Source: Catellatospora sp. IY07-71 (lineage in GTDB: Bacteria > Actinomycetota > Actinomycetes > Mycobacteriales > Micromonosporaceae). From it: a stretch of 64,000 bases of DNA. Position 1 is the stretch's first letter. Each line of letters starts with the position of its first letter. Shown piece by piece: positions 464-18,118 of this stretch. Below the pieces are notes generated by a model. It searched no databases and was not told where the DNA came from. It saw only the letters and a program-made list of their open reading frames with translations. Position numbers and translations under genes: made by a program. The stretch lies in contig NZ_AP023360.1 of NCBI RefSeq assembly GCF_018326265.1, forward strand, positions 3,215,501-3,279,500, read 5' to 3'.

Positions 464-3400
464 ATGAGACGAAAGAATCCGATCAGGACGGTGGCGATCG
501 CGCTCGCCACCGCGATGATCGCCACCGCAGGATGGGCGGCGGTCGCGCAAGCGGCCGGCGGACCCAACCTCTCGCTCGGCAAGTCCGCCTCCGCGAGCTC
601 CGTCAACGGCCCCTACGGCACCGGCAACCTCAACGACGGCAACAAGGGCAGCTACTGGGAGAGCTCAGGCTCCCTGCCGCAGTGGGCGCAGCTCGACCTC
701 GGCGCCGCCACGGCGATCGACCAGGTCGTGCTGAAGCTGCCGGACGGCTGGGGCACCCGCACCCAGACCCTGGCCGTGCAGGGCAGCACCAACGGCAGCA
801 CCTTCACCGACATCGTCGCCGCCCAGGGGTACAGCTTCAACCCGTCGGTGGCGAACAACTCGGTGACCATCAACTTCCCGGCCACCTCGCCGCGGTACGT
901 CCGCGTCAGCATTTCCGCGAACACCGGCTGGGCCGCCGCGCAGCTCTCCGAGCTGGAGATCTACGGCACCGCGAGCTCGTCGACCAACCTCGCGCAGGGC
1001 CGCCCCACCACCGAGAGCGGCCACGCCGACGTCTACGACTCCGGCCGTGCCGTCGACGGCAACCAGGGCACCTACTGGGAGAGCGCCAACAACTCGTTCC
1101 CCGAGTGGCTGACCGTCGACCTCGGCGCCGCCGTCGCGGTCAACCGGGTCGTGCTCAAGCTGCCCACCTCCGGCTGGGGCACCCGCTCGCAGACCCTGTC
1201 CGTGCAGGGCAGCACGAACGGCTCGACGTTCAGCGACCTCGTCGCCTCGGCGTCGTACACCTTCAACCCGGCCGTGGCCGGCAACTCGGTGACGATCAAC
1301 TTCAGCCAGACCACCACCCGGTACGTGCGGATCGACATCACCGCCAACACCGCGTGGCCGGCCGGGCAGCTCTCCGAGGTCGAGGTGTACGGCCCCGGCA
1401 GCGGCACCGACACCACCGCGCCGAGCGTGCCGGGCAACCTGACCCTGAACGCGTCGGGCACCACCATCACGCTGAACTGGAACGCGTCCACCGACAACGC
1501 CGGCGGCAGCGGCCTGGCCGGCTACGACGTCTACCGCAACGGCACGCTGGCCGCGCAGGTCGGCGCCGTCACCAGCTGGCAGGACACCCAGCCGACCTCG
1601 GCGACCGTGTCCTACTACGTGCGCTCGCGGGACAACGCGGGCAACGTCTCGGCCAACAGCAACACGGTGACCCGCAACGGCACCACGCCGGACACCACCC
1701 CGCCGAGCGTGCCGGGCACGCTGAGCCACACCACGTCGGGCACGACGATCACCCTGAACTGGGGCGCGTCCACCGACAACACCGGCGGCAGCGGCATCAA
1801 GGGCTACGACGTGTTCCGCAACGGCACCTTCGTGCTGACCACGGGCAACGTCACCACCTGGAGCGACACCCAGGCCGCCTCGGCGACCGTGTCCTACTAC
1901 GTCCGGGCCCGGGACAACGCCGACAACGTCTCCGGCAACAGCAACACGGTCACCCGGACCGGCGGCGACGTCACCGCGCCGAGCACGCCCAGCAACCTCA
2001 CGCAGAGCACCTCGGGCACCACGATCACGCTCAACTGGAGCGGATCGACCGACAACTCCGGCGGCAGCGGCCTGGCGGGCTACAACGTGTACCGCGACGG
2101 CGGCCTCATCGCCACCATCGGCACCGCCACGACGTACCAGGACTCGCAGCCGGCCACGGCGACCGTGTCCTACTACGTGCGGGCGCGTGACAACGCGGGC
2201 AACCTGTCCGGCAACAGCAACACCGTCACCCGGACCGGCACCCAGCCGCCCGGCTGCACCAACGTGGCGCTGGGCAAGACCATGACCGCCAACGGCTCGA
2301 CCTTCACCTTCACCCCGGAGAAGGCCAACGACGGCCAGGTCGCCACCTACTGGGAGGGCGCCGGATACCCGGCTCAGCTCACCGTCGCGCTCGGCGCCAA
2401 CCACAGCATCACGCAGGTCAACGTGAAGCTGAACCCGGACCCGGCGTGGGGCACGCGTACCCAGAACATCCAGGTCCTGGGCCGCGAGCAGTCGTCGAGC
2501 ACGTACACCAGCCTGGTGTCGGCGGCGAACTACCAGTTCACCCAGGGCAGCAACGTGGTGAACATCCCGGTCAGCGCGAACGTCGCCGACGTGCGGCTGA
2601 GCATCAACTCCAACACCGGCGCCCCCTCGGGCCAGGTCGCGGAGTTCGAGGTGTGCGGCACCCCGGCGCCGAACCCGGACCTGACCGTCACCAACGTGTC
2701 GTGGACCCCGAGCTCGCCGAACGAGGCGTCGACGATCTCGCTGACCGCGACCGTCAACAACACCGGCAACCAGACCGCCGCCGCCTCCAAGGCGGGCCTC
2801 TACCTCGACGGCGCCCTCAAGGGCACCGTGGACGTGCCGAGCCTGGCCGCCGGGGCGTCGCAGGCGATCAGCCTGTCCATCGGCAACCTGGCCCAGGGCT
2901 CGTACGCGGTCAGCGCCCGCGCCGACACGGCGGGCACGGTGTTCGAGCAGAACGAGAACAACAACACCGCCAACGCCGCGTCGAACCTGACCGTGGCTCA
3001 GGCCCCCGGCCCTGACCTGCAGGTCACCGGGATCACCACCAACCCGGCCAACCCGGCCGTGGGCGCGCCGGTCAGCTTCACGGTGACCGTCAACAACCGC
3101 GGCACCACCGCCACCGGCGTCACCACGGTGACCCGGGTGACGGTCGGCAGCACGGTGCTCAACACCAACACCGCCTCGATCGCCGCGGGCGCCACGGTCA
3201 ACGTCGCGGTCACCGGCACCTGGACCGCGACCAGCGGCGGGGCGACCATCACGGCGCTGGCCGACGCCACCAACCTGGTGGCCGAGACCAACGAGACCAA
3301 CAACAGCCGTACGCAGTCGATCGTGGTCGGCCGCGGCGCGGCGGTGCCGTACACCTCGTACGAGGCGGAGAGCGCCAGCCACAACGGTGTCCTGCTGGAG

Positions 3401-6466: not shown

Positions 6467-7042
6467 TCAGGCCGGGCCCAGGTGGGCGTCCAGCGCGGCG
6501 CGCAGCAGGGGGTCGACGTCTTCGGTCTGCACGGTCATCTGCAGGCTGCCCCACTGCCAGAGCTGGGCGATGCCGTGCAGGTTGGCCCACAGCGCACCGG
6601 CGACGACGACGGCCGGGGGAGCCGGGACGCCCGCGCGGGCGCGGCCGACCAGGCCGACCAGCACCCCGAACAGCTCGCGGCTGGCCTCCCGCAGGCCGAT
6701 CTGGTTGCCGCGCAGCAGCTCGTGGCGGAACATCAGCTCGAACATGCCGCGCTGGGTGTGCGCGAAGTCGAGGTAGCGGCGGCCCAGGGCGAGCAGCGCG
6801 GCGCGGGGGTCGGCGTCGTCGCCGAGCCCGGCCAGGCGGCGGCCCAGGTCGAGGTAGCCCTCGCGGGCGATGGCGGACAGCAGCGACAGGTGCGTCGGGA
6901 AGTAGCGGCGCGGTGCTCCGTGCGACACCCCGGCTCGCCGGGCGATCGCGCGCAGGGTCAGTGCGCCGGTGCCGTCGCTGGTGACCAGCTCGACGCCCAC
7001 CGCGACCAGGCGGTCGCGCAGCGTGGTGTCCGGATCGGCCAT
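6467..7042 (-). CDS. TetR-family transcriptional regulator (autoregulated)
   Basis: A 191-residue TetR-type repressor. The N-terminal helix-turn-helix is seen in ALTLRAIARRAGVSHGAPRRYF (in two parts: ALTLRAIARRAG, VSHGAPRRYF; about residues 28-50), followed by an all-helical ligand domain with the TetR_C-like segment. It is the first gene of a two-gene operon with the PlsC-type acyltransferase, suggesting it senses a lipid-like or membrane-active ligand (inference). The ATG at 7042 directly abuts a double dyad operator and sits 6 nt after a -10 hexamer with no Shine-Dalgarno sequence, so the mRNA is predicted to be leaderless and self-repressed. Confidence 0.87.
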   Translation of the reverse strand: MADPDTTLRDRLVAVGVELVTSDGTGALTLRAIARRAGVSHGAPRRYFPTHLSLLSAIAREGYLDLGRRLAGLGDDADPRAALLALGRRYLDFAHTQRGMFELMFRHELLRGNQIGLREASRELFGVLVGLVGRARAGVPAPPAVVVAGALWANLHGIAQLWQWGSLQMTVQTEDVDPLLRAALDAHLGPA

Positions 7043-7105: not shown

Positions 7106-8359
7106 TCAGGAAGGGGAGGGTTTGGGGGCCGGCTGGGTGTTGAGCAGGCCGAACTGGGCGTTGTCGAGAGTGCCCGTGCCGGTGACGCGGTAGCCGGGGC
7201 CCATGGTGCCGAGGCTGAGCCTGACCTCGGCCTCGCTGCGCTCGTACCAGGCGGGCTTGCGGGTGCCGCCGCGCTCGGTGCCGCTGCGTGAGGCCTGGAG
7301 CACCGCGCCGCTGCCGTTGACGTACGGCCGTCCCGGCACCAGCCGGTCGCCCGCCGTCAGCGTGACGACGGCCGAGTTCTCGCCGGTGTAGTTCCACTTC
7401 ACCTCGGGGAACGAGCCGTCGTCGGTGCCGGACTGCATCTCCGTCGCGTTGAGCGTGTCGTCGGCGTACGCGGCCACCAGCCGTTTCTTCGCCTCGATGT
7501 CGTCGATGAGCAGCACCGTCAGGTCGGTGGAGTCGTACGTGCCGCGCAGGTGGATGTCGCGGGCGACCACCGAGTACCGGTCGGCCACGCCCATGCCGGT
7601 ACGCCAGCGCTCCACGAACTGCGGCAGCGGCACGTTTCCCCAGGTGTGGTCGTGGTACGCGGTGCCGGTGAAGTCGCGCTTCTCGTCGTAGAACACGATG
7701 TGCCCCTGCGCCTTGCCGGACGGCATGGCGGCGTACCAGGCCTGGTAGTCGTCGGGCCCGCCCAGGTAGACGTGCCCGGTGCCGGGCCGGAACGGCGGCG
7801 CGAGGCTGATCAGGTCGAGGTTCAGGGTGATGTTGTCCGCCGAGCCGCGCAGCTGGTAGCCGTTGAGGTCGCCGGTCAGCCGGAACGGCCCCACCTTCAC
7901 GTCGCAGCGGTCGGTGGCGCTGGAGAACTCGTTCCAGCTGTAGGTGCGGAACACGCTGAACTCGTTGCCCCACGGCGTGGTGATCAGCAGGTTGACCGCC
8001 GGGCGGCGGTCGGCCTCGGCGGTGAGCCCGTCACCGGGGCGGGTCTTCAGGGTGAAGGCCACCACGATGCCGTCCTCGCCGGTCAGCTCGGTGTGCCACC
8101 ACTCGTACACCCGGGGATCGGCGTTGGTCGCCGCGGTGCGGAACCCGTCCTCCCACGCCTGGCAGCTGTCGGCCTTGAGGTTGAGCAGGGCGAAGTCGTT
8201 CGGGGTGAGGCCGTAGTGGTTGATCGTGGGGCCGACCCGCGACGGTGCCGCCTCCTCGGTGCGGCTGCACCCGGCGAGGCCGGGGACGGCGGCCAGGGAG
8301 CCCGCGGCGAGCGCGCGCAGCGCGGTGCGGCGGGTGAACCTTCCGGGATTCTCGTTCAT
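7106..8359 (-). CDS. Tat-exported lipoprotein with AttH/CrtC-like lipocalin fold
   Basis: The 417-residue protein begins with a twin-arginine signal (RFTRRTALRAL) ending in a lipobox (GLAGC), so it should be exported folded and anchored to the outer face of the membrane. The body resembles the AttH/CrtC (hydroxyneurosporene synthase-like) double-lipocalin family; the segment TAYHDHTWGNVPL (about residues 240-252) matches the YHDHxWG hallmark of that family. Members include hydratases and Diels-Alderase-like enzymes as well as proteins of unknown role, so the reaction is not assignable. It is transcribed away from the GH5 cellulase gene across a 317-bp intergenic region. A short GGTGCCCTTTC segment just after its stop resembles half of a family A repeat. 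Confidence 0.65.
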   Translation of the reverse strand: MNENPGRFTRRTALRALAAGSLAAVPGLAGCSRTEEAAPSRVGPTINHYGLTPNDFALLNLKADSCQAWEDGFRTAATNADPRVYEWWHTELTGEDGIVVAFTLKTRPGDGLTAEADRRPAVNLLITTPWGNEFSVFRTYSWNEFSSATDRCDVKVGPFRLTGDLNGYQLRGSADNITLNLDLISLAPPFRPGTGHVYLGGPDDYQAWYAAMPSGKAQGHIVFYDEKRDFTGTAYHDHTWGNVPLPQFVERWRTGMGVADRYSVVARDIHLRGTYDSTDLTVLLIDDIEAKKRLVAAYADDTLNATEMQSGTDDGSFPEVKWNYTGENSAVVTLTAGDRLVPGRPYVNGSGAVLQASRSGTERGGTRKPAWYERSEAEVRLSLGTMGPGYRVTGTGTLDNAQFGLLNTQPAPKPSPS

Positions 8360-8676
8360 GTCGCCGTCCCATATCGCCCGAGCGCCGCATCAGGCCCCAT
8401 TGCCCTGGTTTGCGTAATGTAGCCCACGTCCGTGCCGCCCGGAGGCGAGATCGCCAGCCTCCGATGCCCGGGTATGGGCGGTGAAAGTTTCACGGGTCAT
8501 CGGGTCCGATCTGCACTCGATGGATGTAGATGTTGCGAAGGCGTTTCAGGCGGCTTAAGCTCCCGTGCTGTGGGAGCGCTCCCGGTCGTTGACCTGGTTC
8601 TTTCCTGGTCACTCTCGTTGCCCGGCGGGAGGTGCCGGGGCGTTTCCGCTCCCGATCCCCTGACGAAAGGCTCGTC
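8360..8676. other. Divergent intergenic region, lipoprotein / GH5 cellulase
   Basis: This 317-bp region has no gene I can support. Its right half carries the CebR-type promoter (8533-8584) of the cellulase gene. A small dyad TGAAAGTTTCA (about 8478-8489) lies in the middle and might serve the divergent lipoprotein gene. Confidence 0.5.
8533..8584 (+). promoter_or_regulatory. Promoter with CebR-type operator for the GH5 cellulase
   Basis: A -35 TTGCGA (8533-8538) and -10 TAAGCT (8556-8561) with a 17-bp spacer predict a start near 8568. Immediately downstream, TGGGAGCGCTCCCG (8571-8584) matches 13 of 14 positions of the known CebR box of actinobacterial cellulose/cellobiose regulons. CebR bound there would block transcription until cello-oligosaccharides are present. 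Confidence 0.8.
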
Positions 8677-10143
8677 ATGAGACTCCTGTCGCGCGCGTCC
8701 CGGCGCGGCCTGGTCGCCGCCACGGCCGCCGGTGCGCTGGCGCTCGGCCTGGCCGCGGCGCTGCCCGCGGTGAACGCGATGGCGGCGGCCGGCTGCTCGG
8801 TCACGTACACCGTGAACCAGTGGCAGGGCGGCTTCACCGCCAACATCACCATCAAGAACCTCGGCGACGCCATCAACGGCTGGACGCTGGGCTTCACGTT
8901 CCCCGACGCCGGTCAGAAGGTCACCCAGGGCTGGTCGGCGACGTACGCGCAGAGCGGCGCCGCGGTCACCGCGGCCAGCATGAGCTACAACGCCGCCCTG
9001 GCCACCGGCGCGTCGGCGAACATCGGTTTCAACGGCAGCTGGACCACCGCCAACCCGCTCCCGACCGTGTTCACCCTCAACGGCGTCACCTGCACCGGCG
9101 GGGTGGGCCCCACCAGCACGCCGTCGGGCGGACCGACGCAGTCCCCGTCGGCGTCGCCCCGGCCGTCCAGCTCGCCCTCGGCCAGCCCGTCGCAGCCCAC
9201 CGGGCAGACCCCGGTGGCGATCAACGGGCAGCTGCGGGTGTGCGGGGTCAACCTGTGCAACCAGTACAACCGCCCGATCCAGCTGCGCGGCATGAGCACG
9301 CACGGCCTCCAGTGGTTCGGCAACTGCTACAACGACGCCTCGCTCAACGCGCTGGCCTCCGACTGGCTGGCCGACCTGCTCCGCATCTCGATGTACGTGC
9401 AGGAGCAGGGCTACGAGACCAACCCCTCCGGGTTCACCAACCAGGTGAACAACCTGGTGGAGGAGGCGACCGAGCGCGGCCTGTACGCGCTGATCGACTT
9501 CCACACGCTCACGCCCGGCGACCCGATGTACAACCTGGAGCGCGCGAAGACGTTCTTCGCGGCGGTCTCGGCCCGCCACGCGAGCAAGAACAACGTCATC
9601 TACGAGATCACCAACGAGCCGAACGGCGTCAGCTGGAGCACCATCAAGAGCTACGCCGAGCAGGTCATCCCGGTGATCCGGGCGAACGACCCGGACGCGG
9701 TCGTCATCGTGGGCACCCGCGCCTGGTCGTCGCTGGGCGTGTCCGAGGGCGGCAACGCCACCGAGGTGATCAACAACAAGGTGAACGCGGCCAACGTGAT
9801 GTACGCGTTCCACTTCTACGCCGCCTCGCACCAGGCCAACTACCGCAGCGAGCTGGAGCGTGCGGCGGCGTCGCTGCCGATGTTCGTCACCGAGTTCGGC
9901 ACCGTCACCTACACCGGCGGCGGCGCGGTCGACCAGTCCAGCAGCACCGCCTGGTTCGACCTGATGGACCGGCTGAAGATCAGCTACGCGAACTGGACGT
10001 ACTCCGACGCCAACGAGGGCAGCGCGGCGTTCCGGCCGGGCACCTGCGCCGGCGGCAGCTACGCGGGGACCGCGAACCTGACCGAGTCCGGCAACTTCGT
10101 GCGCAACCGGATCCGTACCGCAGACAATTTCCCGACCAGCTGA
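8677..10143 (+). CDS. Secreted CBM2-GH5 endoglucanase (cellulase)
   Basis: Predicted to cleave beta-1,4-glucan outside the cell. From ATG 8677 (GAAAGG 6 nt upstream) the 488-residue protein has a signal peptide (to about residue 34, ...AMAAA), a family 2 cellulose-binding module (about 35-145, conserved Trp residues and a Cys pair), a Pro/Ser/Thr-rich linker (about 148-180) and a GH5 catalytic domain (about 185-488). The acid/base is Glu314 in ITNEPNG and the nucleophile Glu406 in FVTEFGT; the overall pattern fits subfamily GH5_2. An upstream CebR box indicates induction by cello-oligosaccharides. A strong 15-bp-stem terminator follows the stop codon. Confidence 0.93.
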   Translation: MRLLSRASRRGLVAATAAGALALGLAAALPAVNAMAAAGCSVTYTVNQWQGGFTANITIKNLGDAINGWTLGFTFPDAGQKVTQGWSATYAQSGAAVTAASMSYNAALATGASANIGFNGSWTTANPLPTVFTLNGVTCTGGVGPTSTPSGGPTQSPSASPRPSSSPSASPSQPTGQTPVAINGQLRVCGVNLCNQYNRPIQLRGMSTHGLQWFGNCYNDASLNALASDWLADLLRISMYVQEQGYETNPSGFTNQVNNLVEEATERGLYALIDFHTLTPGDPMYNLERAKTFFAAVSARHASKNNVIYEITNEPNGVSWSTIKSYAEQVIPVIRANDPDAVVIVGTRAWSSLGVSEGGNATEVINNKVNAANVMYAFHFYAASHQANYRSELERAAASLPMFVTEFGTVTYTGGGAVDQSSSTAWFDLMDRLKISYANWTYSDANEGSAAFRPGTCAGGSYAGTANLTESGNFVRNRIRTADNFPTS

Positions 10144-14146: not shown

Positions 14147-15193
14147 GTGCCTGCCCCGGTGCGCCGCCCGCGTTCCCGTCCCGCGTCCCTGCTGGCCGCT
14201 GTGCTCGCCGCCGTCGTGCTGATCACCGGCTTCCCGGTGTCCGCGTACGCCGAGCCGAACGAGATCCCCAACGCCAAGATCGCCCAGCTGCGCCAGAACC
14301 TGGAGAGCGTCGCCGGGCAGTACCTCGAGGCCGAGGCCGCGCTCGCCAAGGCGAAGAAGGAGCAGGTCGCGCTCAACCAGCGGATGGCCGCGGCCGAGAA
14401 CCGCTACACGCGCAGCAGGTCCAGTGTCGTCAAGTACGCCGCCGAGGCGTACAAGTCCGGCCGGCTGGGCGTCATCGGGGTCATGCTCAACGCGAACTCG
14501 CCCGACGACTTCCTCGGCCGCACGGCCGCGCTGGAGCGGATGACCGCCCGCGACGAGGCCCGCATCGGCGAGATGGTCGCGGCCCGCAAGGAGATCGAGG
14601 AGGCGAAGGCAGCCGTCGACGCCGCCGTCGCCGAGCAGGCCAAGCAGACCAGGGAGATGGCCAAGCTGCGCAAGGCCGCCGAGAAGGCGCTGTCGGCGGT
14701 CGGCGGCGAGGCCACCCGGGGCTGGGTCGAGCCCGGCTCGCCGCTGGCGATCCCCGCGCCGCGCAACGCCGACGGCACCTGGCCCAAGGAGATCTGCAGC
14801 ATCAACGACCCGACCAAGCCCGCCCCGGCGTGCATCACGCCGCGCCTGCTGCACGCCTACGAGCAGGCGCGCAAGGCCGGGTTCAAGCGGTTCACCGCGT
14901 GCTGGCGGCCCGGCGACATGTACGAGCACCCCAAGGGCCGCGCCTGCGACTTCGCCGTCGCGTCGGGCGGCGGCTTCGGTGGCACGGCCTCGGGTGACGC
15001 CCGGACCTATGGCAACAAGCTCGCGTCGTTCTTCGTGAAGAACGCCAGCAGGCTGGGCGTGATGTACGTGATCTGGTTCTGCCAGGTGTGGCTGCCCAGC
15101 TCCGGGTGGCGCAGATACTCGCCGACCGGCTCGTCGTGCGGTGACTCGCCGTCCAGCGACCACACCGACCACGTGCACCTGTCGGTGTACTGA
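14147..15193 (+). CDS. Secreted coiled-coil protein with C-terminal VanY/ARB_07466-like domain
   Basis: Predicted to act in the cell envelope, probably in peptidoglycan remodelling. The 348-residue chain has an N-terminal signal peptide (cleavage near SAYA-EP, residue 36-37), a long helical coiled-coil region (about 42-190, resembling RipC/CwlO-type hydrolase regulatory coils) and a C-terminal domain (about 205-348) with GRACDFAV and DHTDHVHLS, a His/Asp arrangement like that of the ARB_07466/D-Ala-D-Ala carboxypeptidase-like fold. GTG 14147 is preceded by GGAAGGA. The gene ends 1 nt before the convergent DinB gene. Whether the C-terminal domain is catalytically active cannot be decided here. 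Confidence 0.75.
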   Translation: MPAPVRRPRSRPASLLAAVLAAVVLITGFPVSAYAEPNEIPNAKIAQLRQNLESVAGQYLEAEAALAKAKKEQVALNQRMAAAENRYTRSRSSVVKYAAEAYKSGRLGVIGVMLNANSPDDFLGRTAALERMTARDEARIGEMVAARKEIEEAKAAVDAAVAEQAKQTREMAKLRKAAEKALSAVGGEATRGWVEPGSPLAIPAPRNADGTWPKEICSINDPTKPAPACITPRLLHAYEQARKAGFKRFTACWRPGDMYEHPKGRACDFAVASGGGFGGTASGDARTYGNKLASFFVKNASRLGVMYVIWFCQVWLPSSGWRRYSPTGSSCGDSPSSDHTDHVHLSVY

Positions 15194-15194
15194 G

Positions 15195-15713
15195 CTACTG
15201 CCCGGCCTGGCCGTCGATGCTCTCGCGCATCAGGTCGAGGTGGCCGCAGTGCCGTGCGGTCTCCTCGATCATGTGCGTCAGCGCGTACCGCAGCGTGAAG
15301 CTGTTGCCCTCGCCGTGGGCCCGCTCGTCCAGGTCGGCAGCGCCCTCGGCGACCGTGCGGGACCGCGCGCACTCGGTCTCGTAGGCCGCGACGATGTCCG
15401 CGAGCGTGTCGTCCGGTGCGAGCGGGAAGCCGCCGTGCGGCTGCTCCGCGCTCCACGGCCACGGCAGGTCCAGCCCGGCGAAGTCGATGCCGAACCAGAA
15501 GCGCTCGACCCCGGTCAGGTGTTTGACCAGGCCGGCCGGGGTCAGCGCGGAGGCGGGCACGGGCCGGGAGAACGCCTGCTCGTCGGTCAGCCCGGCGACC
15601 TTGAGCAGCACCGTGGCCCGCAGGAAGTCGAGCATGCCGGTGAGCGTCTGCCGCTCGGTGCCGTCCTCGGGCGGGCGGGTGCGCACCACCGGTACGAGAG
15701 GTTCGTCGATCAT
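15195..15713 (-). CDS. DinB/DUF664-family putative metal-dependent protein
   Basis: A 172-residue four-helix-bundle protein of the DinB superfamily (DUF664 type), which in actinobacteria includes mycothiol-dependent transferases. The three histidines expected to bind metal are seen in LVKHLTGVER and HMIEETARHCGH. The substrate is unknown. A paralogue lies at 35031-35537. It converges on the coiled-coil gene with 1 nt between stops and no terminator. The ATG at 15713 sits 6 nt after a -10 TACGGT (15720-15725) with no Shine-Dalgarno sequence, so a leaderless mRNA is predicted. Confidence 0.8.
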   Translation of the reverse strand: MIDEPLVPVVRTRPPEDGTERQTLTGMLDFLRATVLLKVAGLTDEQAFSRPVPASALTPAGLVKHLTGVERFWFGIDFAGLDLPWPWSAEQPHGGFPLAPDDTLADIVAAYETECARSRTVAEGAADLDERAHGEGNSFTLRYALTHMIEETARHCGHLDLMRESIDGQAGQ

Positions 15714-15740: not shown

Positions 15741-15783
15741 ATTTCTGCCTCGCGTGGACAGAAATTCTCGCGTTGGGTGTAAT
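15741..15783 (+). promoter_or_regulatory. Promoter with dyad before the ECF-CAP fusion gene
   Basis: A possible -35 TGGACA (15755-15760) and -10 TGTAAT (15778-15783) with a 17-bp spacer. A 7-bp dyad ATTTCTG (15741-15747) / CAGAAAT (15759-15765) overlaps the -35. The region also holds the leaderless promoter of the divergent DinB gene. An ECF-type autoregulatory promoter might exist here, but its consensus cannot be defined from one example. Confidence 0.5.
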
Positions 15784-15838
15784 GACCCGGCCGGTGGCGA
15801 GACCTACTAGCGACGAACCGCTACCTCGGGAGGCAGTC

Positions 15839-17221
15839 ATGCGGTCAGACACGTCCCTGGCCAGGGCCGCCGCGGCAGGAGACCGGGAAGCCTTCGACCG
15901 GCTGTACCGCATGTACCGCCCCGGCCTGCTCGGCTTTGTGTACCGGCAGGTCGGTGACCACCACCTCGCCGAGGACCTGGTGCAGGAGACCTTCCTGATC
16001 GCCTGGCGGGACCTGGCCAAGCTGCGTGATCCGCAGGCGGTGCGGACCTGGCTGTTCTCCATCGCGTACAAGCGGTCCATGAGCGCCGTGGCGCAGACCG
16101 TGCCCGCGCCGCTGCCCGACGCCACGCTGCTGCCCGACGACGCCCCCGGCCGCCATCCCGAGCGCGCCGCCGAGCAGCGCGAGGCCGCCGAGCTGGTCTG
16201 GGCCGCCGCGCACGGCCTCCAGCCGCGCCAGCGCGCCGTGCTGGAGCTGGCCGTGCGCTGGGAGCTGTCCAGCCGGGAGATCGGCGAGGTGCTCGGCGTC
16301 GGCACCGCCCACGCCGCGGTCCTGGTGCACCGCTCCCGGACGGCCCTCGGCGGCGCGGTGCGCACGGTGCTCATCGCCCGCCGGCACGGCCGCTGCGCCG
16401 GGCTCGACGCGATCGTGCACGGCCGCCGCCGGCTCACCTCCCGCGAGCGCTCCCGCGTCGAGCGGCACGTGCGCGACTGCGGCCAGTGCCGCCGCCTCAG
16501 CGCGCACAACGGGGCGTACGCGCTGCTCGCCGCGCTGTTCGTGCTCGCCGACGGGCCGGTGCCCGGCGCCGCGCCGGTGCGGACCGCGGGGTGGTCGCTC
16601 GCGCTGCCCGCCAAGATCGCGTTCGCGTGTGCCGCGACGGCGGCCGTGGTGGCCGGGGTGTACGCGATCGGCCCGCTGCCCGGCGGCGCCGAGGTCGACG
16701 GCACGGGCCTGGCCGCGGCGGTCACCGGGCCCGTCGGGTCCACGCCGGGCGCCTCCGTCGCGCCGTCGTCGGCGTACCCGAGCGTCGCCGCCTCGCCCAC
16801 GCTGTCGCCGTCGGCGAAGCCCAGCCCCAGCAAGGCGCCGACCACCCTGGAAGGGCAGATGCTCGCGCTGGTCAACGACGCCCGCCGGAAGGCCGGCTGC
16901 AAGGCGCTGCGGGCCGAGCCGAAGCTGGACAAGGCGGCCCGCGGGCACAGCGCCGACATGGCCAAGCGCGACTACTTCTCCCACGAGACCCCCGAGGGCG
17001 TCACCCCGTGGGACCGCGCCCGCTCCGCGGGCTACGACACGCCCTCGGCCGAGAACATCGCCGCCGGCAACGCCACCGCCAAGGCCACCTTCCAGCAGTG
17101 GATGGACTCCAAGGGCCACAAGGCCAACATCCTGAACTGCTCGTCCAAGTCCATGGGCGTGGGCCGCGCCACCGGCGGCACCTACCGCTACTACTGGACC
17201 CAGATGTTCGGCTACAAGTGA
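15839..17221 (+). CDS. ECF sigma factor fused to zinc-finger-like motif, TM helix and CAP domain
   Basis: One uninterrupted 460-residue frame combines an ECF sigma factor (region 2 about residues 17-75, with AEDLVQETFLIAWRDL; region 4 about 115-180, with LQPRQRAVLELAVRWELSSREI and a helix-turn-helix), an HxxxCxxC motif (His210, Cys214, Cys217) like that of zinc-binding anti-sigma domains, a single membrane helix (about 258-280), a Ser/Pro-rich linker (about 290-333) and an extracellular CAP/SCP domain (about 335-460; DYFSHETPEG, AENIAAG, WMDSKGHKANIL). The layout implies a self-inhibited, membrane-tethered sigma factor with its own outside domain, which would need proteolytic release or a conformational signal (inference). 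ECF groups with fused C-terminal extensions are known; I do not recall this exact CAP-ended form. Start ATG 15839 has GGGAGG 5 nt upstream. Confidence 0.88.
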   Translation: MRSDTSLARAAAAGDREAFDRLYRMYRPGLLGFVYRQVGDHHLAEDLVQETFLIAWRDLAKLRDPQAVRTWLFSIAYKRSMSAVAQTVPAPLPDATLLPDDAPGRHPERAAEQREAAELVWAAAHGLQPRQRAVLELAVRWELSSREIGEVLGVGTAHAAVLVHRSRTALGGAVRTVLIARRHGRCAGLDAIVHGRRRLTSRERSRVERHVRDCGQCRRLSAHNGAYALLAALFVLADGPVPGAAPVRTAGWSLALPAKIAFACAATAAVVAGVYAIGPLPGGAEVDGTGLAAAVTGPVGSTPGASVAPSSAYPSVAASPTLSPSAKPSPSKAPTTLEGQMLALVNDARRKAGCKALRAEPKLDKAARGHSADMAKRDYFSHETPEGVTPWDRARSAGYDTPSAENIAAGNATAKATFQQWMDSKGHKANILNCSSKSMGVGRATGGTYRYYWTQMFGYK

Positions 17222-17353: not shown

Positions 17354-18118
17354 ATGGACTGGACGCTCGGCCTCGGCGAGTCGCTGGTGGTGCTGGCCGC
17401 GGGCGCGGCGGCGGGTGGCATCAACGCGGTGGTCGGCTCCGGCACGCTGGTGACCTTCCCGGTGCTGCTGGCCCTGGGCTACCCGCCGGTGGTCGCCAAC
17501 GTCTCCAACACCGTCGGCCTGGTGCCGGGCTCGCTGTCCGGGGCGTACGCCTACCGCAAGGACCTCGCCGGGCACGGCCCGCTGCTGCTGCGCCTCGGCA
17601 CCGCTTCGGTGCTCGGCGCGATCGTGGGCGCGGTGCTGCTGCTGTGGCTGCCGCCGGGCGCGTTCAAGGCGATCGTGCCGGTGCTGATCGGCCTGGCGCT
17701 GGTGCTGGTCGTGGCGCAGCCGTGGCTGGCCCGCAGGCTGGCCGCCCGGCAGCCGGACCGCGCGCACCGGGTCGGGCCGCTGCTGCTGCTCGGCGTCTTC
17801 GGCGCGGGCGTGTACGGCGGCTACTTCGGCGCGGCCCAGGGCGTGCTGCTGCTCGGGCTGCTCGGCGTGCTGCTGTCCACCGACCTGGTCTGGGTCAACG
17901 GCATCAAGAACCTGCTGGCCGGCCTGGTGAACGGGGTCGCCGCGCTGCTGTTCATCGCGCTCGGCATGGTGGCCTGGCAGCCCGCGCTGCTGATCGCGGC
18001 CGGCTCGGTCGCCGGCGGCCTCGTCGGCGGCCGCTGGGGCCGCCGCCTGCCCCCCACCGCCCTGCGCGCCCTCATCGTCGTGATCGGCCTCGCCGCCATC
18101 CTCCAACTCCTCACCTGA
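17354..18118 (+). CDS. TauE/SafE-family (TSUP) sulfite/anion exporter
   Basis: A 254-residue integral membrane protein with about eight hydrophobic segments in two related halves. The family hallmarks are the first-half GGINAVVGSGTLVTFP and NVSNTVGLVPGSLSG and the second-half YGGYFGAAQGVLLL and NGIKNLLAGLVN. Relatives export sulfite, sulfoacetate or other small organosulfur and carbon anions; the substrate is not predictable. GGGAAGG lies about 10 nt upstream of ATG 17354. A family D inverted repeat follows at 18158. Confidence 0.87.
   Translation: MDWTLGLGESLVVLAAGAAAGGINAVVGSGTLVTFPVLLALGYPPVVANVSNTVGLVPGSLSGAYAYRKDLAGHGPLLLRLGTASVLGAIVGAVLLLWLPPGAFKAIVPVLIGLALVLVVAQPWLARRLAARQPDRAHRVGPLLLLGVFGAGVYGGYFGAAQGVLLLGLLGVLLSTDLVWVNGIKNLLAGLVNGVAALLFIALGMVAWQPALLIAAGSVAGGLVGGRWGRRLPPTALRALIVVIGLAAILQLLT

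Follow-up and report, generated by a model that had tools for sequence, protein, structure and literature searches.

ECF groups in which the sigma factor carries a fused C-terminal regulatory extension are described in the literature, as the initial annotation of the present locus had noted; they include ECF48, ECF52 and ECF53. The relevant part of PMC5826349 describes ECF52 proteins as consisting of a sigma factor, a zinc finger, a membrane helix, a Pro-rich stretch and a carbohydrate-binding domain, and reports for one of them, SCO4117 of Streptomyces coelicolor, that truncating the sigma gave a strain in which its own gene became active, for which autoregulation was proposed. Some ECF52/53 proteins are listed with predicted glycosyl hydrolase and carbohydrate-binding domains in the section concerned of PMC10766802. 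Release by proteolysis is expected for ECF48, 52 and 53 in the passage of PMC8999054 that treats them, as characterised for IutY (ECF243) of Pseudomonas putida, a sigma factor that shares one chain with a membrane anti-sigma until regulated proteolysis releases it.

We analysed a window of 64,000 nucleotides from the 8.6 Mb genome of Catellatospora sp. IY07-71, where a protein of comparable layout of 460 residues is encoded by a single frame (15839-17221, + strand; ATG at 15839, the stop ending at 17221), supported as a coding sequence by the frame itself, Pfam and orthologues. The frame, sigma regions 2 and 4, membrane helix, Ser/Pro linker and CAP domain read earlier from the bare sequence were all confirmed, the domains by Pfam and NCBIfam and the helix by hydropathy, and the GGGAGG ribosome-binding site is indeed present before the start (15828-15833, +). 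On the same strand follow sigma region 2 (residues 22-79, 15902-16075; Pfam Sigma70_r2, E 3.6e-14) and region 4 (residues 120-170, 16196-16348; Sigma70_r4_2, E 9.6e-5, below cut-off), and the NCBIfam sigma70-ECF superfamily model matched residues 17-170 above its cut-off. Regions 2 and 4 and no further sigma region were found by Pfam, NCBIfam and the structural model, as in ECF sigma factors. Straight after region 4, as in the ECF48/52/53 type, comes a zinc-finger-like domain, predicted to be a CHCC zinc-binding anti-sigma-like domain (16394-16489, +), and the predicted membrane helix (residues about 258-278, 16610-16672, +) and Pro-rich outer extension likewise agree with that type. The helix coincides with a Kyte-Doolittle peak of 2.03 at residues 260-278, and is followed by a Ser/Pro/Ala-rich linker (residues 279-335, 16673-16843, +), the least conserved of six parts of the protein, and by a putatively extracytoplasmic CAP/SCP domain (residues 342-457, 16862-17209, +).

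Judged by domain order, the protein resembles SCO4117 and the ECF52 proteins as outlined in PMC5826349 in that a single actinobacterial chain unites a sigma with a zinc finger, a membrane helix, a Pro-rich stretch and an outer domain, but its outer part is a CAP domain and not a carbohydrate-binding module. With ECF53 and ECF48 it shares the fusion of a sigma factor to a zinc anti-sigma-like domain with one or two membrane helices, although the descriptions of these groups in the sections concerned of PMC8999054 and PMC10766802 mention no CAP extension. IutY, in contrast, belongs to a gram-negative system for iron-starvation signalling and has no CAP domain. No publication on a CAP or SCP extension of an ECF sigma was found in the open literature searched, which did not include the main ECF classification papers, and within that scope CAP as a sensory head for transcription appears unreported. 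Little is understood, to our knowledge, of what CAP domains do in bacteria; with CAP wired to a sigma factor, the question of its ligand becomes a reporter assay, in which a ligand or damage read by the head should switch a predictable promoter.

Our preferred reading, which we hold to be reasonably probable, is that of a self-inhibited, membrane-held ECF sigma factor, a sigma/anti-sigma receptor in one protein with CAP as its envelope sensor, freed by proteolysis. The N-terminal sigma would be clasped by the CHCC domain in the manner of class I anti-sigma domains, and a single helix would tie the sigma-CHCC unit to the membrane, the N-terminus lying inside. The disordered Ser/Pro linker could reach into the wall from outside, where the CAP domain would read the state of the cell envelope or one of its components, peptidoglycan or a wall glycan being the likeliest. 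An envelope change might then cause a cut within the membrane or close to it, or the opening of the zinc clasp, and the freed sigma would switch on its own promoter together with further targets. The sigma-I/RsgI systems of cellulosomes comprise two proteins and a different type of sigma, and are not known to belong to the same family. They work alike in combining glycan sensing outside the cell with autoproteolysis, as far as the account in PMC10766802 goes.

For the zinc region, the HxxxCxxC motif of His210, Cys214 and Cys217 pointed out in the initial annotation held in all three positions, but Cys186, the likely fourth zinc ligand, had been missed. The four residues were invariant in separate alignments of 17 full-length, 12 chassis and 43 chassis rows, where by chassis we mean the sigma-CHCC-membrane part of the protein. 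A further alignment, of 23 out of 26 pieces, had been trimmed around HxxxCxxC, which in itself makes its H and C columns invariant. Among 80 unique chassis proteins the HxxxCxxC motif was present in every one; in 76 of them a Cys precedes the His by 24 or 25 residues, and one protein was without a Cys within 36 residues. The zf-HC2 family matched the full window protein at residues 198-218 with E 0.025, below the Pfam cut-off, and 11 of 23 zinc-region pieces at E 0.1 or better. Searched against the PDB, the zinc-region profile gave the anti-sigma factor DdvA first (E 0.32) and 3hug_B, which we take to be the anti-sigma RslA, fifth of six (E 0.7), neither being significant, while matches two to four were unrelated proteins, CsoR and xanthine dehydrogenase among them, so that these matches to anti-sigma factors are a hint only. 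The CHCC motif fits a class I zinc anti-sigma domain, which may bind zinc and clasp the sigma.

One and the same sigma-CHCC-membrane chassis bears interchangeable outer parts, including CAP. A chassis-profile search of 41 family genomes gave matches at E 1e-25 or better in 33 of them; weaker matches resembled ordinary ECF sigmas and stopped short of the zinc region. The 80 chassis proteins, unique over their first 200 residues, are an opportunistic sample from several searches, from which rows with chassis coverage stopping before profile position 225 were excluded. When their outer parts were clustered by BLAST, the largest groups were CAP (19), AbfB (17), beta-helix (11) and GH128-like (7), the remainder forming two beta-rich clusters (9 and 3), a Pro-rich cluster (3), two pairs and 7 singletons. 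Pfam, run on part of these proteins, confirmed 14 of the 17 AbfB (PF05270), 7 of the 11 beta-helix and all 7 GH128 (Glyco_hydro_cc, PF11790) proteins; in a set of 43 proteins its counts were AbfB 13, Glyco_hydro_cc 7, Beta_helix 6 and CAP 2. Eight chassis proteins had no outer-domain family by Pfam, one of them (L175) having no match beyond its sigma part, and the labels "Ig-like" and "lysozyme-like" were given to outer parts by eye. By the same means, the outer parts of L175 (293-2023, +) and L179 (1405-3126, -) look lysozyme- or transglycosylase-like. The occurrence of the chassis with GH128 parallels the ECF52/53 proteins with glycosyl hydrolase domains noted in part of PMC10766802, and what is new is that an ECF52/53-like chassis type carries several exchangeable outer parts, with CAP among them. 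The sigma-CAP protein is of interest because its CAP head appears unreported and because the family is modular, which makes different heads comparable on one chassis; it is less surprising in that chassis of this type have been described before and at least one other genus commonly has sigma-CAP proteins.

A tree of 73 chassis rows needed two changes to account for the 17 rows with CAP, which fell into clade A, with 10 CAP rows including the window protein (support 100/97), and clade B, with 7 CAP rows, namely five f33 proteins and those of genomes G017 and G035 (95/98). A single CAP origin was seen in 0 of 200 bootstrap trees, and outer domains were conserved within the chassis clades. Grouping the CAP rows together by constraint was rejected (p-AU 0.005), in an AU test that preceded the addition of the f33 rows but followed the inspection of a tree. 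Six near-identical Catellatospora rows were left out of the chassis trees, L087 and two further rows out of the AU-test and 73-row trees, and another three out of the 73-row tree; an earlier chassis tree that included L087, a CAP fusion, still gave a count of two. CAP fusions found later in the sample of genus g113 are absent from the trees, with the exception of L217, a gene identical with L202. When 85 CAP domains were placed in a tree, it grouped the 7 clade-B CAPs with 6 free CAPs (95) and placed 17 clade-A CAPs in a separate group (93), with the G266 protein (L107) outside on a long branch; this tree, built on few columns and with 38 of 82 inner branches open, is poorly resolved. In it, SIGA needs two changes and SIGB four, with free CAPs falling inside the SIGB part.

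We read these phylogenies as pointing to two separate acquisitions of CAP from free CAP proteins, and its presence on two chassis clades offers a natural replicate. Somewhat more speculatively, these proteins could form a large actinobacterial class of one-protein envelope receptors, in which a single chassis is fitted with exchangeable heads that read wall or glycan, such as CAP, AbfB, beta-helix, GH128 and others yet to be named. CAP heads would have been gained on two or more occasions, secreted CAP proteins being the probable source, and a free CAP protein, whose gene adjoins the fusion in G266 and G035, may act as a ligand competitor or a regulated output; we advance this tentatively, as a possibility somewhat short of even. 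If it is true, CAP would be a sensory domain for transcription.

The CAP domain itself is clear, with a Pfam match (PF00188) at residues 342-457 of 92.9 bits against a cut-off of 21.1 (E 3.3e-26), a PDB sequence match to 4ifa (E 4.8e-12), and a fold that resembles 4ifa, 4d53, BB0689 and GAPR-1 by PDB and Foldseek comparison. C354, H370, H382, E405, H427 and C434, which presumably line the metal site seen in CAP structures, are all kept in the window protein; of the fused CAP domains, 17 of 18 in clade A and 12 of 15 in clade B have the full set. The exceptions are L107, where the fusion was retained but three of the four conserved polar residues were lost (H382, E405 and H427 changed), two proteins with H427 replaced by R, and one with H370 replaced by Y. 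Among free CAP proteins, H382, E405 and H427 were present in 61 of 61 and H370 in 56. The CAP part also resembles YkwD-like CAP proteins and DalA, matching the NCBIfam YkwD (E 8.6e-32) and DalA (E 1.7e-16) models, each below its cut-off; the YkwD-like proteins are not known to be joined to other parts. DalA, which has no sigma part, is a lipoprotein of the outer membrane and binds peptidoglycan, according to the sections concerned of PMC10470522. The link between CAP and DalA rests on the NCBIfam match, since that text never mentions CAP, SCP or YkwD.

Peptidoglycan or wall glycan is by analogy the most likely class of ligand, fitting better than a sterol or lipid because sibling proteins bear glycan-linked outer domains and the CAP part matches the DalA model. 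Of the ligands first put forward for this domain, from the wall or of a sterol/lipid kind, the latter found no evidence in our analysis, no sterol link among it, and the sterol-binding reading was dropped.

The CAP domain could alternatively be mainly a wall anchor, with the CHCC zinc centre as the true sensor of redox state or metal and zinc loss as the event that frees the sigma, a role with precedents in the zinc centres of RsrA and ChrR. Such a division of labour would suit a CHCC set that is invariant although the outer domains vary, and also the decayed CAP domain of L107. A mere anchor, however, would not need the degree of conservation that was found, the mean pairwise identity within clade A being 0.77 for CAP, 0.72 and 0.77 for the sigma part and 0.43 for the linker, nor the retention of outer domains within clades, and we regard this explanation as unlikely.

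The neighbourhood of the gene bears on another reading, that of a two-product precursor, in which the CAP part would be a secreted effector shed by the same cut that frees the sigma, so coupling shedding to transcription. The conserved residues are kept to much the same degree in fused and free CAP domains, and two of 15 sequences scanned have a free CAP gene next to the fusion, divergently in G266 and tail to tail in G035. In the other 13, the window included, there was no second CAP, although several of these loci span only 3-7 kb, and the genome of the window protein has two free CAP paralogues elsewhere, which also speaks against it; a precursor of this kind seems to us rather improbable. 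At the G266 locus (L126), the free CAP gene (8066-8860, -) stands head to head with a sigma-CAP match from 8931 (+), the one whose own CAP is short of three conserved polar residues, and a gene that looks STAS-like by eye (6530-6862) lies about 2 kb upstream of the sigma-CAP gene. At the G035 locus (L088), the frames at 734-1615 (+) and 1626-3053 (-) are the free CAP and the clade-B sigma-CAP protein.

No anti-sigma gene was recognised next to the sigma-CAP gene, by Pfam in the window and by eye at other loci. Ahead of the window gene is a mycothiol-S-transferase-like gene (15195-15713, -), and behind it comes a TauE-like transporter (17354-18118, +). The former is also present in C. bangladeshensis but was not detected in this position in C. 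coxensis (L036) or at L106, where the gene upstream of sigma-CAP is a homologue of 14147-15193, while the upstream DNA of three other loci (L007, L008 and L011) resembles its start; the mycothiol-S-transferase-like gene is thus variably present in the genus. The gene at 14147-15193 (+), which sits upstream of the sigma-CAP gene in part of the genus, has a PcsB-like coiled coil by a weak Pfam match and, by eye, a wall-hydrolase-like C-terminus. At seven further loci, none of 11 window genes tested adjoined the sigma gene.

A structural model was computed with AlphaFold2 from a 23-row alignment of the window protein and related-locus pieces only (mean pLDDT 73, pTM 0.52). In blocks of ten residues, pLDDT was 87-96 in region 2, 79-93 for residues 121-180, 62-83 in the zinc region and 90-97 in CAP, and fell below 50 for residues 92-103 and 233-331, including the membrane helix (258-274 in the model). 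The top Foldseek match was 4ifa, an SCP-domain protein. The sigma part came closest to SigW from its complexes with RsiW (target TM 0.81-0.82, rmsd 8.3-8.5), followed by CnrH-CnrY (0.79) and RpoE-NepR (0.70), compared with 0.29-0.42 for chains from transcription complexes, and other sigma/anti-sigma complexes also fitted poorly (SigK 0.56, BldN-RsbN 0.47, AlgU-MucA 0.47, sigmaE-RseA 0.42-0.46). The compact sigma of the model agrees with a clasped state, but may reflect the training set. The short helix and its low model confidence would allow that the hydrophobic stretch is not a transmembrane one, so that the whole protein, CAP included, stays in the cytoplasm. The hydropathy peak and the Ser/Pro linker argue against this, as does the Cys pair C354/C434, which is found in 33 of 33 fused CAP domains compared with 50 and 51 of 61 free ones and would suit a disulfide outside the cell, and we consider a cytoplasmic location very improbable.

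Full-length matches with the same domain order were found in 11 of 11 Catellatospora genomes, including that of the window (66-100% identity), and the order was constant in 17 full-length proteins including the window protein. Among named relatives, identity in the best segment was 99% for C. bangladeshensis, 73% for C. coxensis and 65% for Catellatospora sp. KI3. Of 150 genomes covered by the family search, 16 had a full-length match, these being the 11 Catellatospora and five others (G070, G026, G049, G087 and G100), and the near-full-length matches in G017 and G035 (35-36% identity) turned out to be clade-B sigma-CAP proteins. The order search gave full-length matches in two of 150 genomes, the window's own and G266 from another family. 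The class search of 118 genomes gave full-length rows in the own genome and in four genomes of the actinobacterial genus g113, and a partial row from G364 (L206) also proved to be full-length. Clade-B-type sigma-CAP proteins are common in g113, being present in at least 8 of 13 sampled genomes, with the stretch in G400 masked. That an error of sequencing or assembly had joined two genes, or that the fusion arose by chance in one strain, has a negligible probability, since orthologues keep the sigma-to-CAP order in separate assemblies from the genus, other genera and other families. Neither of the results that the initial annotation had named as refuting a fusion, a frameshift between two genes or orthologues with sigma and CAP always apart, was encountered, nor anything else in support of an artefact, which we ruled out, and the original view of a true fusion stands. 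G070 also carries a second sigma-CAP copy (L087, 2657-4183, -), with a strongly divergent sigma part and a well conserved CAP part.

Upstream of the window gene lie a -35-like GTAAT (15779-15783, +) and a -10-like CCTACT (15803-15808, +), with 20 bases separating GTAAT from CTACT. This footprint, a motif defined post hoc, recurs in Catellatospora and three other genera as GTAAT, 20-21 bases, then mostly CTA or GTA, the start following some 30 bases later. Motifs were counted in non-redundant upstream stretches of up to 130 bases, the same sequences from which they had been derived. GTWAT was present upstream of 14 of 16 clade-A, 6 of 7 clade-B, 7 of 7 GH128 and 3 of 53 other chassis genes, against shuffle means of 1.09, 0.38, 0.51 and 2.81 and reverse-strand counts of 1, 1, 0 and 6, respectively. 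The spaced clade-A motif was found in 10 of 16 clade-A genes (reverse strand 0, shuffle maximum 1). This conserved footprint suggests that the sigma-CAP gene may be autoregulated, in line with the proposal for SCO4117. Across the own genome, the clade-A pattern had 8 sites compared with 6 in the reversed control, for which reason no regulon can be named, and only the gene's own site was convincing; the clade-B motif in three genomes had 4 sites compared with 2 in the control. Prediction of a regulon by promoter motif was abandoned with counts this close to the control. One clade-A pattern site, at chance level, lies just upstream of a gene (L131) that looks flavin monooxygenase-like by eye. 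A second pattern, GTWAT-N13-19-GTCTC, was present in 4 of 7 clade-B, 7 of 7 GH128 and 1 of 53 other chassis genes. In the form GTTAT-N17/18-GTCTC it stands upstream of five GH128 genes and four clade-B CAP genes, which hints at a promoter class shared by GH128 and CAP chassis genes.
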